Assembly: GCA_025363605.1 (NCBI GenBank)
Contig: JANYDO010000121.1
Coordinates: 1 to 32,956, forward strand
DNA: 32,956 nt
Source: Candidatus Kapaibacterium sp.
GTDB taxonomy: Bacteria > Bacteroidota > Ignavibacteria > Kapaibacteriales > UBA4661
Direction of reading: 5' to 3'
The notes beneath the pieces are model-generated. The model saw only the letters and a program-made list of their open reading frames with translations. It was not told the DNA's origin and did not search any database. Position 1 is the first letter of the stretch. Every line of letters starts with the position of its first letter. Made by a program: the position numbers and the translations under genes. Shown here piece after piece: positions 23,433 through 29,450 of this stretch.

Positions 23433-24185
23433 TTAATAATGGCATGCACCGCAGTTTTCCGGTCCAAGAGCCAATTTTTTCGGCATTACCAATCCTGCAA
23501 CACTTGCTTTACCAACTTCGTGTTCGTACACGCCTGCGCCTTCGATAGCGCAATCGCGCATCGAAATCCATTTGCCTTCCCCACGAGAAGGAGCATCATT
23601 CTTGATTTTTTTTGCTGTCTCTTCATATGAATCAAGACCGGTGAAAATGCCGGAAATTTCACGTGCCGGTACGACATTCGCTTGCGGATTGCGGTGGCAG
23701 TCCAAGCACCATCCCATAGAGAGCGGTTTCATCTGGGTGACAACGCCCATTTTCTCGACTTCGCCGTGGCAAGAAGCACAATCTACACGAGCGCGAATGT
23801 GGCGTGCATGGCTAAAATTGACGTAATCGGGAAGTTTGTGAACTTTGCGCCACTCAAGCGGCTTGCCAGTCTCCCAGCTTTCCTTGATTTTCGCAATTTT
23901 CGGACTTTCTGCTTTCACTGCTACGTGGCAGTTCATACAAGTGCTGGTTGCCGGAACGGTCGAGTGTTTAGATTTCTCCACCGATGTATGGCAATACATA
24001 CACTTGATTTGCAGGTCGCCCGCATGGAGTTTGTGCGAAAAAGGAATCGGCTGCTCAGGGCGATAGCCCACGTCGGTAACAAGATTGTCAAAGCCAAAAT
24101 AGCTGACAACGCTGATAAACCCCAGAAGCGCAAGTCCCGCCAAGATAGTATTCTTGGTCTTTTGATTTGTCTTTGCGGTAAACAT
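23433..24185 (-). CDS. actA: Alternative complex III subunit ActA, pentaheme cytochrome c
   Basis: A 250-residue protein from ATG 24185 (a TTG three codons earlier is less likely). One membrane anchor lies at about 13-31. Five CxxCH heme sites are present: 62-66, 83-87, 136-140, 160-164 and 245-249, the last one residue from the C-terminus. The number and spacing match the pentaheme ActA of Rhodothermus and Chloroflexus. It starts the act gene run and is followed by actB after 135 nt. It transfers electrons from ActB clusters to a soluble or anchored cytochrome. Confidence 0.96.
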   Translation of the reverse strand: MFTAKTNQKTKNTILAGLALLGFISVVSYFGFDNLVTDVGYRPEQPIPFSHKLHAGDLQIKCMYCHTSVEKSKHSTVPATSTCMNCHVAVKAESPKIAKIKESWETGKPLEWRKVHKLPDYVNFSHARHIRARVDCASCHGEVEKMGVVTQMKPLSMGWCLDCHRNPQANVVPAREISGIFTGLDSYEETAKKIKNDAPSRGEGKWISMRDCAIEGAGVYEHEVGKASVAGLVMPKKLALGPENCGACHY

Positions 24186-24233
24186 AGCAAACAAAAGAAA
24201 ATGTGAAACGGTCTGTTAAAATTATTCGTAAAA

Positions 24234-24524
24234 TTACACGCCAGCCGCATTGTTTCCGGCTTCGCGGTATAGATGCGTCTTATCATTCGCATCCATTTGA
24301 CGCTTGATTTTCACTACCAAGGTAATAATGATTGCCACCGGCATAAGAATCATTAAATAAATCGTATAGCCGTAGGCAATACCAATGCCGCCACTGGTGG
24401 TGTTCAGGTCAAAATTGTCTTTGCAATTGGGACACGCAAGCATAACAGTTTGCACGAAAGGCAGCATAGTGCCAAGGAGTGCAAAAAAAGATATGCGCCG
24501 TCCAATAGAATGAAGAGTTTTCAT
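24234..24524 (-). CDS. Small CPNC membrane protein in the oxidase/ACIII operon, function unknown
   Basis: A 96-residue protein from ATG 24524. It has a hydrophobic N-terminal segment (about 11-30) that is either a signal peptide or a helix. Directly after it comes CPNC at 31-34, then a short polar stretch, then a second helix (about 47-70) with GYTIYLMILMPVAIIITLVV, and a basic, cytoplasmic-like tail. The CPNC would face the periplasm. I recall similar short proteins beside ACIII or cytochrome oxidase genes in other phyla, but know no function. A role in assembly, copper or heme handling would fit the cysteine pair and place, but is inference only. The earlier TTG or GTG starts overlap the preceding oxidase gene. 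Confidence 0.75.
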   Translation of the reverse strand: MKTLHSIGRRISFFALLGTMLPFVQTVMLACPNCKDNFDLNTTSGGIGIAYGYTIYLMILMPVAIIITLVVKIKRQMDANDKTHLYREAGNNAAGV

Positions 24525-24567: not shown

Positions 24568-24882
24568 TTACAGCGTCGGTCCACCCAAAACCGTCAAGGC
24601 AAACACCAAAACGGAAAAGAGAAAGAGCGGAACATAAATGAATACACGGATGTAAGGATTATCAAATTTGATGTGCATGAAAACATACACAACCATCCAT
24701 GCTTTAGCAACAGCAATGATAAGACCGATGGTAACGTGCAGCATTGTTGAGACACTCCCCCAACTTTCGGGAAAATGGACAAACTTTGCCGCTATAATCG
24801 TCAAAAGAGTAAAGAACATCAATGCGCCGAAGATTTTGAGATAGCTTTTTTGCATTTCTTCTGCTGACATACTTGCGCTCAT
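24568..24882 (-). CDS. Cytochrome c oxidase subunit IV-like protein
   Basis: A 104-residue protein with three hydrophobic helices: FGALMFFTLLTIIAAKFV, MLHVTIGLIIAVAKAWMVV and VFIYVPLFLFSVLVFALTV. The motif AVAKAWMVVYVFMHIKFD is typical of the prokaryotic oxidase subunit IV/CoxD family that stabilises the bacterial enzyme. A good ribosome site (GAGGTGAG) lies just before the ATG. It follows subunit III in the operon by 50 nt. Confidence 0.9.
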   Translation of the reverse strand: MSASMSAEEMQKSYLKIFGALMFFTLLTIIAAKFVHFPESWGSVSTMLHVTIGLIIAVAKAWMVVYVFMHIKFDNPYIRVFIYVPLFLFSVLVFALTVLGGPTL

Positions 24883-24932: not shown

Positions 24933-25520
24933 TTAGAAAATGAGATAGAGAATCGGGAAGAGGAAAATCCACACAAGGTCAACGAAGTGCCAGTAAAGAC
25001 CAAGTATTTCGACACGTTCCCAGTCGCGGTAGCCACGCTTGGTAAAGGATTTCGCCAACATCCAGCCAATCGGAATCATACCGCCAATAACGTGCATGGC
25101 GTGGAAGCCGGTCATGGTGAAATAGAGACCAAAAAACGAACTTGTTCCCGGATAAATACCGTGGCTGAATTTTGTCGTGTATTCAATATATTTGATAACC
25201 AAGAAGCCACAAGCGCACAAGAACGTAATGCCCATGTACAATTGAAATCTTGATTTATTACCGTGTTCAAGGGAAAGAATCGCCATTGCCATCGTAAGAC
25301 TGCTAACAATCAGGTTCACGGTGTTCAGTGCCGCGAGTTGCCAGTTCAGTTCGGACGCGCCATGTGCGAAAACAGGAAGGTTAGTATTGCGAAGAATAAT
25401 GAACGCTGTGAAGAAACCGGAAAAGAACATCACTTCGGATGCAAGGAAAATCCACATACCGAGTTTTCCATGGCGGATGCCTGTTACCGGCTCATGCGCG
25501 AGAGAAAGAGCGGACGACAT
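24933..25520 (-). CDS. coxC: Cytochrome c oxidase subunit III
   Basis: A 195-residue, five-helix short form of subunit III. Motifs include LGMWIFLASEVMFFSGFFTA, FGLYFTMTGFHAMHVIGGMI and a C-terminal GLYWHFVDLVWIFLFPILYL. These are diagnostic for the CoxC/CtaE family. The protein supports the proton and oxygen path of subunit I. It lies 89 nt after the ctaB stop and before the subunit IV gene. Confidence 0.95.
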   Translation of the reverse strand: MSSALSLAHEPVTGIRHGKLGMWIFLASEVMFFSGFFTAFIILRNTNLPVFAHGASELNWQLAALNTVNLIVSSLTMAMAILSLEHGNKSRFQLYMGITFLCACGFLVIKYIEYTTKFSHGIYPGTSSFFGLYFTMTGFHAMHVIGGMIPIGWMLAKSFTKRGYRDWERVEILGLYWHFVDLVWIFLFPILYLIF

Positions 25521-26690: not shown

Positions 26691-28529
26691 TTAGTGCTTT
26701 TCTGCGATAGTTGTTTCCTGCTCTACGTGAGCAGGGCGAATCCACTGTGGTAGATAATCGCGTTTAGATTCGGGCGAGGCAAATTCGTAAGGACCACGAT
26801 AGACAGTGATGTCACGGTCGAAATTGCCGTGTCCCGGATGCGAAGGAGCAGCCCACTCAAGAGTGTTTGCACGCCAAGGATTGCGTGGCGCTTTGCGACC
26901 AAACTTCAAACTCCAGAGAAGATTGAAAATAAGGATAAGCTGCGAAAAGCCCATCGCAATAGCAAAAATCGTAATAAACTGGTTAATCGGCTGGAAAGGC
27001 TTCAGGAACTCGTACACATATGGATCGTAAATACGACGCATATGACCACCGACACCAATCATATGCATCGGGAAGAAGCAGAGATTGAAGGTGATGAATG
27101 TAAGGAAGAAATGGAATTTGCCAAGTGTTTCATTATACATTTTGCCGAACATTTTCGGATACCAATAGTACACACCAGCAAAGATGCCGAAGAGCGCTCC
27201 ACCAAAGAGAACATAGTGGATGTGCGCAACGATAAAGTAGGTGTCGTGGATATACACATCTATCGGACCAACGGCCATAAATACACCGCTCAGACCGCCG
27301 CAAACAAACGTTGAGATAAAGCCTAGCGCGTTCAAGTTTGCTGATGTGAAATGAATATTTCCTTTCCAAATCGTACCGAGCCAATTAAAAATTTTGATAG
27401 ACGACGGCACGGCAATAACAATCGTGGAAAGCATAAACGTAGTACCCAAAAGCGGACTCATACCCGAAAGGAACATATGATGTCCCCACACGACAAAGCC
27501 CAAGAAGGCAATCGCCATAATAGCAAAAACCATCGCTTTATAGCCAAAAATTGCTTTACGAGCAAACGTTGCCAAAACGTCAGAGACAACGCCCATTACC
27601 GGCAAAATCATGATATACACAGCAGGGTGCGAGTAGAACCAGAAAAGGTGCTGCCAGAGTACCGGCTGACCACCACCACCCGCGCCAACGTTTGCACCAC
27701 TTGGATACAAGCCGCCATTGGGCGTAAGGAGATTCTCAGGAATAAAAATACCAGCGTGAAATACTTGGTCAACAAACAACAATGACATAGCAGAAGCAAG
27801 TACGGGCGTACCCAAAACTTGCAGCACAGAAGTAATAAACAGCGCCCAGACGGTAAGCGGCATATCGAACATTCTCATACCTTTAGCACGCTTATTGAGC
27901 GTGGTGGCAAGGTAATTCATCCCACCCAAAATAGACGAAAAGCCTACCAAAAAGACACCAATAACCCAAAGCATATGCCCTGTTCCCGACGCACTCAGTG
28001 GAGGATAGTTTGTCCAACCCGCTGCTGCCGTACCACCTTCGACGAAGAAGCCTGACATAATAGTCAGACCGGCAACCGGCACAAGCCAGAAAGAAATCAT
28101 GTTAATTGTTGGCATCGCCATATCGTCGGTGCCAATCATAAGGGGGATACAGAAGTTTGCGAATGCCCCCGTCGCCATCGGAATAATCACAAAGAAAATC
28201 ATAACCGTAGCGTGCATCGTCACAAGCTGCGTATAAAAACCGGGCTGCACCGCACCATTGGAAACAAGAGTATCCGGCAACCATTTTCCGACAAGTGGAA
28301 TTGGTTCGCCCGGATAAGCAAGCTGCCAGCGAATGAAAAGAGCAAAAGCGCCACCGACCAACAGGAAAAACATGGAGGTCGTTAAGAACTGCTTTGCAAT
28401 CGTTTTGTGGTCAGTAGAAAAAATATACTTGCGAATGAACGACACGCTGTGATGTGCGTGGTCGTGCGCATGGCTTTCGTCGTGTGTGGCGACGTGAGCG
28501 TGGTCATGCTGTGTTGCAACTGCTGCCAT
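26691..28529 (-). CDS. coxA: Cytochrome c oxidase subunit I, A2 type
   Basis: The catalytic heme-copper subunit, 612 residues from ATG 28529 (an upstream TTG is unlikely). Low-spin heme ligands are His106 and His438, the high-spin heme ligand is His436, and CuB ligands are His301, His350 and His351, with Tyr305 as the His-Tyr crosslink partner. The helix-VI sequence is FYSHPAVYI: Tyr299-Ser300 replaces the glutamate of A1 enzymes, marking the A2 subclass known from the Rhodothermus marinus caa3 oxidase. The first 30 residues are histidine rich (HDHAH, HAHDHAHH). It lies 72 nt after the subunit II stop. Confidence 0.97.
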   Translation of the reverse strand: MAAVATQHDHAHVATHDESHAHDHAHHSVSFIRKYIFSTDHKTIAKQFLTTSMFFLLVGGAFALFIRWQLAYPGEPIPLVGKWLPDTLVSNGAVQPGFYTQLVTMHATVMIFFVIIPMATGAFANFCIPLMIGTDDMAMPTINMISFWLVPVAGLTIMSGFFVEGGTAAAGWTNYPPLSASGTGHMLWVIGVFLVGFSSILGGMNYLATTLNKRAKGMRMFDMPLTVWALFITSVLQVLGTPVLASAMSLLFVDQVFHAGIFIPENLLTPNGGLYPSGANVGAGGGGQPVLWQHLFWFYSHPAVYIMILPVMGVVSDVLATFARKAIFGYKAMVFAIMAIAFLGFVVWGHHMFLSGMSPLLGTTFMLSTIVIAVPSSIKIFNWLGTIWKGNIHFTSANLNALGFISTFVCGGLSGVFMAVGPIDVYIHDTYFIVAHIHYVLFGGALFGIFAGVYYWYPKMFGKMYNETLGKFHFFLTFITFNLCFFPMHMIGVGGHMRRIYDPYVYEFLKPFQPINQFITIFAIAMGFSQLILIFNLLWSLKFGRKAPRNPWRANTLEWAAPSHPGHGNFDRDITVYRGPYEFASPESKRDYLPQWIRPAHVEQETTIAEKH

Positions 28530-28601
28530 AGCGTTCACCGTAAAAATTGAGTTGTGAAAATTTCTGTTTGATTCCAAAAATACCGTCTGGGCGACTACCT
28601 T

Positions 28602-29450
28602 TTAGTGGGAGCTACCATGATGCTCGCCTTCGGGCGCAGCAGCCTCTGCCGGAGGCGGAGCTACGGGCTGGGGATTAGCAGCTTCGGCGGCTAAGACAGC
28701 CTTTTTCGCGGTAATCTTCCCATCCATCCATTTTGCAAAATCCGCATCAGATTGCATATTCAGCACAGCCCGCATTGCATAGTGACCGCTTCCGCAAAGT
28801 TCTGCACAAGCAAGTTCATATTTGCCGGATTTCGTACCGTTATGCCAGACTTCAATCCACGAACCCGGCACAGCATCTTGCTTAATACGGAAGTTCGGGA
28901 GAAAATAGCTGTGCAAGACATCTACGGAGGAAAGGTGAACAACAACATTTTTGTTGATTGGGAGATTGAACTCGCCTGTCATTACAATGTCATCTTTACC
29001 ATGTGCGTCCGTGGGGTCAATACCGAAGAGGTTTTGTGCGGAGCGATAACGAGCATGGCGTTTACCCAAGATACCATCGGCACCCGGATAGCGAACGTGC
29101 CAGTTAAATGCCTGACCAACAACGTCAATTTCCATATCCGGTGTCGGGATGCGTGACGAATACTTCATCACTTTCCACATTTCGTCGCTGTACAAACCCA
29201 AGCCGGCGAAAAGAACCGTCGGCGCAAGCGTCCAGACAAATTCGACAACGTTGTTACCATGATAGTAAATGGATTTGTGTCCCGGACGATTGCGATAGCG
29301 AAAAATAAAAGTTACCAAAGTAATCTGTACGAGCAAGAAAATAGCGACGGACAGCCAATACACAAGACGAAAGAGATCGTCGTGCGCTTCGCTATACGTG
29401 CTGATTCCCGGCGGGAAATACGTTAGCATATTCCACGAAAAATCAAACAT
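28602..29450 (-). CDS. coxB: Cytochrome c oxidase subunit II (CuA)
   Basis: A 282-residue protein with two membrane helices (about 28-50 and 68-88) and a periplasmic cupredoxin domain. CuA ligands are His180, Cys215, Glu217, Cys219, His223 and Met226 (motifs VDVLHSYFLP and CAELCGSGHYAM). Unlike classical caa3 subunit II there is no fused cytochrome c domain. The tail is Pro and Ala rich and ends in EGEHHGSSH. The heme protein is instead encoded just upstream as a separate gene. No signal cleavage site or lipobox is evident. Confidence 0.96.
   Translation of the reverse strand: MFDFSWNMLTYFPPGISTYSEAHDDLFRLVYWLSVAIFLLVQITLVTFIFRYRNRPGHKSIYYHGNNVVEFVWTLAPTVLFAGLGLYSDEMWKVMKYSSRIPTPDMEIDVVGQAFNWHVRYPGADGILGKRHARYRSAQNLFGIDPTDAHGKDDIVMTGEFNLPINKNVVVHLSSVDVLHSYFLPNFRIKQDAVPGSWIEVWHNGTKSGKYELACAELCGSGHYAMRAVLNMQSDADFAKWMDGKITAKKAVLAAEAANPQPVAPPPAEAAAPEGEHHGSSH

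Follow-up and report, generated by a model that had tools for sequence, protein, structure and literature searches.

A conserved small CPNC protein encoded with cytochrome c oxidase genes in Bacteroidota is a candidate maturation factor with probable selenoprotein forms in Planctomycetota

The DNA examined in the present study, hereafter the window, is a stretch of 32,956 nucleotides from Candidatus Kapaibacterium sp. (GCA_025363605.1, contig JANYDO010000121.1, positions 1 to 32,956). Compared across loci, the gene order on its minus strand is nuoA, nuoB, a cytochrome c gene, coxB, coxA, ctaB, coxC, coxD, the gene under study and actA to actF, names that we presume from the sequences. The gene under study, here called the CPNC gene after a motif in its product, occupies 24524..24234 on the minus strand and encodes 96 residues (coordinates including the stop codon), while the plus-strand frame at 24234-24524 is interrupted by a stop. 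The original prediction had placed a 96-residue protein at 24234-24524 between oxidase and ACIII genes, which is correct, with the strand now given as minus, coxD on one side, actA on the other and all three genes on the same strand. Directly upstream and separated by 43 bp is a gene at 24568..24882, placed by comparison, which we take from its family to be coxD, encoding a small oxidase subunit; directly downstream and separated by 39 bp is an ORF at 23433..24194 with CxxCH motifs, presumably actA for the multiheme cytochrome c subunit of ACIII. Farther upstream on the minus strand are coxC for oxidase subunit III (24933..25520, with a PF00510 match at G000:C552:24942-25541) and a gene at 26691..28577 that we take from its sequence to be coxA, encoding the heme a3-CuB subunit I. 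The gene for subunit II, coxB (28602..29450, minus strand), carries the CuA motif CAELCGSGHYAM, following the pattern CXEXCX3HX2M given for this subunit in a passage of PMC9145763.

The CPNC ORF is a real, conserved gene under purifying selection. Matches to its product at E<1e-4 were obtained in 31 of 60 related genomes (the window's own genome left out), the closest with 79% identity, and dN/dS against five relatives was 0.14, 0.08, 0.19, 0.16 and 0.23, a sixth comparison being not computable owing to saturated dS. An alignment of members of the window's order, in which 27 of 32 rows were used, has M1, C31, P32, C34 and G48 invariant and A30 and K35 nearly so; both motif cysteines are also invariant in a wider alignment of 25 rows. 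Named relatives were found in metagenome genomes called Kapaibacterium, Ignavibacteria or Bacteroidota, as well as in two Planctomycetota (Pirellulaceae and Blastopirellula). Searches of the window protein and its relatives against Pfam and NCBIfam gave matches below curated cut-offs only and hence no family; for the window protein, Pfam at E<=10 returned only DUF7385, DUF805 and YnfU, all below cut-off. In the PDB, neither the sequence nor the 25-row profile found more than weak similarity to unrelated proteins (RING fingers and receptors, for example), the oxidase-supercomplex entries being searchable as far as depositors named and modelled their chains, and no match was found among plasmid records.

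From its basic start the protein runs through a hydrophobic stretch with Ala at its end, the sequence CPNCK and a linker of polar residues to one hydrophobic helix, which is followed by a basic tail. Judging from the sequence and aligned family members, codons 1-30 (24435..24524, minus strand) probably form a signal peptide ending in ...VMLA, so that the CPNC motif (codons 31-34, 24423..24434, minus strand), whose Cys columns are the invariant ones of the 27-row and 25-row alignments, would be the N-terminus of the mature protein. Codons 51-71 (24312..24374, minus strand) are predicted to form a transmembrane helix, followed by the basic tail KIKRQ, as suggested by a G/Y/I-L pattern conserved in both alignments and by the positive-inside rule. 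The residue before the first motif Cys is Ala in 30 of 31 aligned sequences and Ser in the other, and the residue at -2 appears by eye to be unrestricted, including E, K, D, Q and N, which fits a signal peptidase I site rather than a lipobox. The first helix therefore resembles a signal peptide that is cut off immediately ahead of C31, which would leave a mature protein that probably has one transmembrane helix. The original description of a two-helix protein with a Cys pair right after the first hydrophobic segment holds for the pair, since CPNCK follows directly on codons 1-30, and for the presence of two hydrophobic segments, but the first appears to be of signal type and the mature form probably keeps only one.

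Several known protein classes were considered and rejected. A bacterial lipoprotein is excluded by the missing lipobox and the charged -2 residue of several members, and a c-type cytochrome by CPNCK in place of CxxCH, the second Cys being followed by Lys in >90% of the 27 rows; the motif likewise gives no support to the heme half of the original suggestion of a copper or heme assembly factor. Thioredoxin-like oxidoreductases (TlpA, ResA) gave no Pfam match, and a mature chain of ~65 residues with one membrane helix is probably too small for their fold. Membership of the Cox11 family (CtaG_Cox11) likewise finds no PF04442 match in the window protein, and membership of Sco (SCO1-SenC) neither a PF02630 match nor the CXXXC motif, the motif here being CXXC.

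Among 34 loci fetched from the window's order, the CPNC gene lies directly before actA (<300 bp) in all 32 that hold both, the remaining two being an oxidase-only locus of G028 (L063) and a chance match (L064). A Sco gene, often followed by DUF420, lies between coxD and the CPNC gene in other families of the order (PF02630 and PF04238 matches on example loci), while in the window's genus (7 loci) sco and DUF420 are gone from the cluster and the CPNC gene is retained. The window genome has one DUF420 gene (G000:C545:8761-9147) and one Sco gene (G000:C234:3646-4026), both away from the oxidase cluster, unlike the order's other families.

The unbroken run of positions directly upstream of actA would suit a protein that belongs to ACIII as a subunit or joins it physically to the oxidase, the latter role having been raised in the original prediction. 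A wider sample speaks against this: in 40 Bacteroidota loci, 39 of them from outside the window's order and one from G012, neighbours within 6 kb on the same strand included oxidase genes in 32, DUF420 in 30 and sco in 26, but never an ACIII gene; ACIII genes are present farther off in 14 of these 40 stretches, with oxidase genes in between. Where the two complexes are encoded apart, the CPNC gene is found with the oxidase. It follows coxD in the oxidase loci of G012 and G028, with ACIII elsewhere, and G025 has the order coxB-coxA-coxC-coxC-CPNC gene in one locus (L211), with ACIII and ctaB-sco-DUF420 on another contig that lacks the gene (L212). In G021 one copy lies in an oxidase-ACIII cluster and a second in a second oxidase cluster (L213, G021:C55). 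The CPNC gene, COX3 and DUF420 are present in G252, which has no ActC match, and by hand comparison the CPNC gene lies ~29-58 kb from ActC in seven genomes of f32. Co-occurrence cannot distinguish between the complexes, because ActC, matched in 219 of 296 Bacteroidota genomes, is also present in 86 of 87 CPNC-positive ones (hand comparison), with 133 of the 219 lacking a CPNC protein at E<1e-8; it is position that decides. We therefore reject an ACIII subunit, as the gene is not encoded with ACIII wherever it is found, consider any subunit or linking role in ACIII very improbable, and regard the constant place before actA in the window's order as a reflection of operon order. The proposed ACIII-oxidase link is thus unsupported, whereas the broader expectation that homologues would lie beside ACIII or oxidase genes in other genomes was confirmed by the homologue and neighbourhood search.

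A search with the 25-row alignment identified CPNC proteins at E<=0.01 in 96 of 296 Bacteroidota genomes, 87 of which reach E<1e-8, the stricter count leaving out nine genomes with E between 1e-8 and 0.01, including G025, G064 and G112, which by position look like true divergent members. DUF420, present in 149 of the 296, was detected in all 87 CPNC-positive genomes versus 62 of the 209 others (Fisher p 1.9e-34), and lies directly upstream on the same strand in 61 of the 87. The nearest annotated upstream gene in the 40 loci is DUF420 in 31, coxD in two and none in seven. The gene is accordingly linked to oxidase genes or known oxidase assembly genes. The COX3 search (PF00510, E<=1e-10) failed to detect the gene in at least five of the positive genomes (G017, G062, G081, G099 and G102), some of which have a coxC-like gene beside the CPNC gene. 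The protein is not generally needed, because at least 62 DUF420-positive genomes of the 296 have no clear homologue and a possible small CxxC counterpart, judged by motif and hydrophobicity only, was seen in just three of 20 oxidase loci from genomes without one. Divergent CxxC proteins are encoded between coxD and coxB in G064, G112 and G295. Very divergent small CxxC single-helix proteins, either homologues or look-alikes, occupy the same interval in Bacteroidota loci L208, L209, L210, L258, L267 and L269, and in two loci of f34 genomes (L203 and L204) DUF420 is head to head with actA with no CxxC protein found nearby.

The CPNC gene directly follows coxD in several loci (L169, L163 and Planctomycetota L225 and the L234 region), and it stays with the oxidase when sco and DUF420 move, as might be expected of a small structural oxidase subunit whose Cys pair forms a structural disulfide. 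We consider such a subunit unlikely, as the gene is missing from many oxidase-bearing genomes and stands alone, away from oxidase genes, in seven of the 40 loci (f27-type genomes and others). Moreover, the protein has no relative in solved structures, as far as oxidase-supercomplex chains were named and modelled, and the selenocysteine that Planctomycetota members probably carry would have no reason in a structural disulfide. Among the isolated copies, L175-L178 and L216 have a CxxC without a following Lys or Arg, and have possibly moved or changed function.

Family matches at E<=0.001 were obtained in 46 of 149 Planctomycetota genomes, and in 31 three-kb loci from this phylum the neighbours included DUF420 in 17, sco in 12 and cox genes in nine. 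The motif was read in 49 loci from 47 genomes (the 46 plus G333, leaving out second copies in G409 and G349 and a weak second match of G333), and is CxxC in 25, UxxC in 20 and CxxU in four, where U denotes an in-frame TGA exactly at the motif Cys; neither TAA nor TAG occurs at this position in any of the 49. The 24 TGA loci are L221, L227, L231, L235-L237, L239, L242, L243, L246, L247, L249, L270-L279, L283 and L287. A downstream hairpin with a 6-bp stem and a 4-base loop, at codon positions fixed relative to the TGA, is complete in 14 of the 20 UxxC loci versus none of the 25 Cys loci, the remaining six UxxC loci having 3-4 of the six stem pairs. Its loop is GGTC in 15 of 20 UxxC versus one of 25 Cys loci, and a GGUC-type loop is a feature of the E. 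coli fdhF element. The stem arms vary between loci yet pair (GGAGGC/GCCTCC, GGAAGC/GCTTCC, GGACGT/ACGTCC), to an extent reached in none of 2000 dealings of the 3' arms; when the 3' arm is slid by -3, 72.5% of cells in the Sec set still pair versus 85.8% in register, with 30-47% for other slides. Downstream folding z-scores are modest (median -0.47 for UxxC, -0.8 for CxxU and +0.5 for Cys, with Cys locus L181 left out), the four CxxU loci having been covered by folding and the UxxC and Cys loci by the stem comparison as well. A tRNA-Sec above the family cut-off was detected in 22 of 24 genomes with Sec forms, the exceptions being G396 and G363, versus 12 of 23 Cys-only genomes (p 0.003).

A pseudogene or sequencing error as the cause of the TGA was rejected, because the codon falls only on the motif Cys in 24 loci, is never replaced by TAA or TAG, and is supported by the hairpin and tRNA-Sec. 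Genome-wide reading of TGA as a normal amino acid is ruled out because TGA also ends several of the same genes. A TGA at a conserved Cys, a SECIS-like hairpin and a tRNA-Sec were thus all found in the Planctomycetota, in which the TGA forms are probable selenoproteins on the strength of these sequence features. Parsimony on a tree of ~60 residues gave 14 changes of form, against a shuffled mean of 19.0 with five of 1000 shuffles as low, although such an alignment is too short for the origins of Cys and Sec forms to be counted. Table 1 of a 2026 prokaryotic selenoprotein inventory, listing 119 families or subfamilies, has no recognisable counterpart (PMC13188914), and none appears in the portions of PMC9312934, PMC1794560 and PMC4807772 covered by a survey of openly licensed literature; the planctomycete selenoprotein list in the supplement of PMC4807772 may hold an earlier notice. 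The family looks like an undescribed selenoprotein family, and this likely selenoprotein branch is the unexpected part of the result. Selenocysteine at the motif is no proof of redox work, because several entries of the same Table 1 place it in metal-binding motifs (PMC13188914). Nevertheless, bacterial Cys-to-Sec changes mostly affect thiol redox families with UxxC or CxxU, according to a passage of PMC1794560, and a redox role is therefore favoured over pure binding.

The copper half of the original suggestion stands by inference from the sco, DUF420 and oxidase neighbours, and the distribution of other copper assembly factors bears on how such a role might be filled. Cox11 (PF04442) was detected in two and Caa3_CtaG (PF09678) in one of 80 Bacteroidota genomes, consisting of 52 with the CPNC protein and 28 COX3-positive genomes without it. 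This scarcity, together with the predicted single helix, the outside-facing Cys motif and the DUF420 and sco neighbours, would fit a Cu(I) metallochaperone without redox work, in which Cu(I) bound by the pair is passed on to CuB in the manner of the Cox11 CXC motif, filling the gap left by Cox11 and Caa3_CtaG. However, the 28 genomes without the CPNC protein lack both factors, and the three that have either factor (G078, G129 and G091) all carry the CPNC protein; a simple presence-absence trade is consequently not borne out and the protein is no simple substitute for Cox11 or CtaG. Since Sec at either motif position fits redox turnover at least as well, we regard a purely metallochaperone role as doubtful.

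On balance, we lean towards the CPNC protein being a maturation factor dedicated to the heme-copper cytochrome c oxidase that acts as a thiol or selenol redox couple with Sco and CtaM, and not a part of ACIII. Sco was detected in all 58 genomes searched (CPNC-positive genomes and close relatives of the window). According to part of PMC13344008, oxidase assembly requires the DUF420 protein CtaM, whose proposed task in Bacillus is to export copper for Sco and/or to reduce it; the same source discusses the need for a localized cupric reductase and notes Sco-DUF420 fusions in planctomycetes. In a passage of PMC9145763, Sco and the CuA cysteines are said to need reduction, for which TlpA serves only in some bacteria, CtaM is listed as essential and further oxidase assembly proteins are expected. 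The electron or Cu(I) step that is missing would be matched by a membrane-tethered CxxC or UxxC protein encoded in a sco-DUF420 cluster. Following signal cleavage, the CPNC protein would span the membrane with a single helix, its N-terminus outside, and would carry the Cys-Pro-x-Cys pair right at that terminus on the outer face of the membrane. The pair would serve as a thiol-disulfide redox couple, or a selenol-thiol couple in many Planctomycetota, and would work with Sco and the DUF420 protein CtaM in copper loading. Possible recipients of electrons from the pair are Sco, the CuA cysteines of subunit II and Cu(II) that arrives via CtaM, and the pair would probably hold Cu(I) briefly. What was observed is a conserved family, linkage to oxidase, sco and DUF420 genes, an invariant pair and, in Planctomycetota, TGA accompanied by the hairpin and tRNA-Sec; the topology, the partners, the redox chemistry and the direction in which electrons or copper flow are what we infer. 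Counting against the redox reading, the CPNC chain appears to have neither a thioredoxin or cupredoxin fold nor a recognised electron source. Oxidase synthesis might alternatively be under the control of the CPNC protein, as a regulator or as a sensor of redox state or copper. The only point in favour is that signalling would be compatible with a reactive pair on the outer side and a basic tail in the cytoplasm; loci annotated with a set list of oxidase and ACIII genes showed neither a signalling domain nor a linked regulator, and we give this reading very little credence.

The protein bears on the loading of CuB and CuA in bacteria other than Proteobacteria and Bacillota. The CPNC protein is a direct candidate for copper loading, because Cox11 and Caa3_CtaG are nearly absent from the sampled Bacteroidota and its gene is tied to the oxidase, sco and CtaM, and the candidate could be deleted in Flavobacterium-type genetic hosts. 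Should the Planctomycetota forms carry Sec, an oxidase maturation step there would depend on selenium, and the Sec position would mark the reactive residue for mechanistic work. We offer a bolder form of the proposal only tentatively, namely that this is a selenoprotein family linking selenium to oxidase building, in which an N-terminal dithiol or selenol-thiol on one helix would provide the Sco-CtaM route with its localized copper reductase or its Cu(I) insertase, as a stand-in for Cox11 and Caa3_CtaG in Bacteroidota and Planctomycetota.

Four known systems invite comparison. The TGA-containing members in Planctomycetota resemble bacterial UxxC and CxxU selenoproteins in having a TGA at a Cys of the CxxC pair, a downstream hairpin and a tRNA-Sec in the genome, although no selenoprotein family in Table 1 of PMC13188914 is recognisable as the CPNC family and NCBIfam gives no match above cut-offs. 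Cox11 (CtaG_Cox11, PF04442), a CuB assembly factor needed for heme-copper oxidase, shares with the topology predicted here a single membrane helix and a copper-related Cys motif on the outer face, as described in part of PMC9145763. The CPNC protein differs from it in having no sequence match, a CXXC rather than a CXC motif, the predicted helix after rather than before the motif, and no soluble domain. An oxidase-linked Cys pair outside the membrane is the feature in common with Sco (SCO1-SenC, PF02630) and the thiol reductants of TlpA type, and the Sco gene is often two genes away from the CPNC gene, but Sco and TlpA have a thioredoxin fold, whereas the CPNC mature chain would have ~65 residues and one membrane helix. 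CtaM/DUF420 (PF04238) shares a role in oxidase assembly, a neighbouring gene and complete (87/87) co-occurrence with the CPNC protein; as a protein of 4-5 helices with no sequence in common with it, CtaM is a probable partner rather than a relative.
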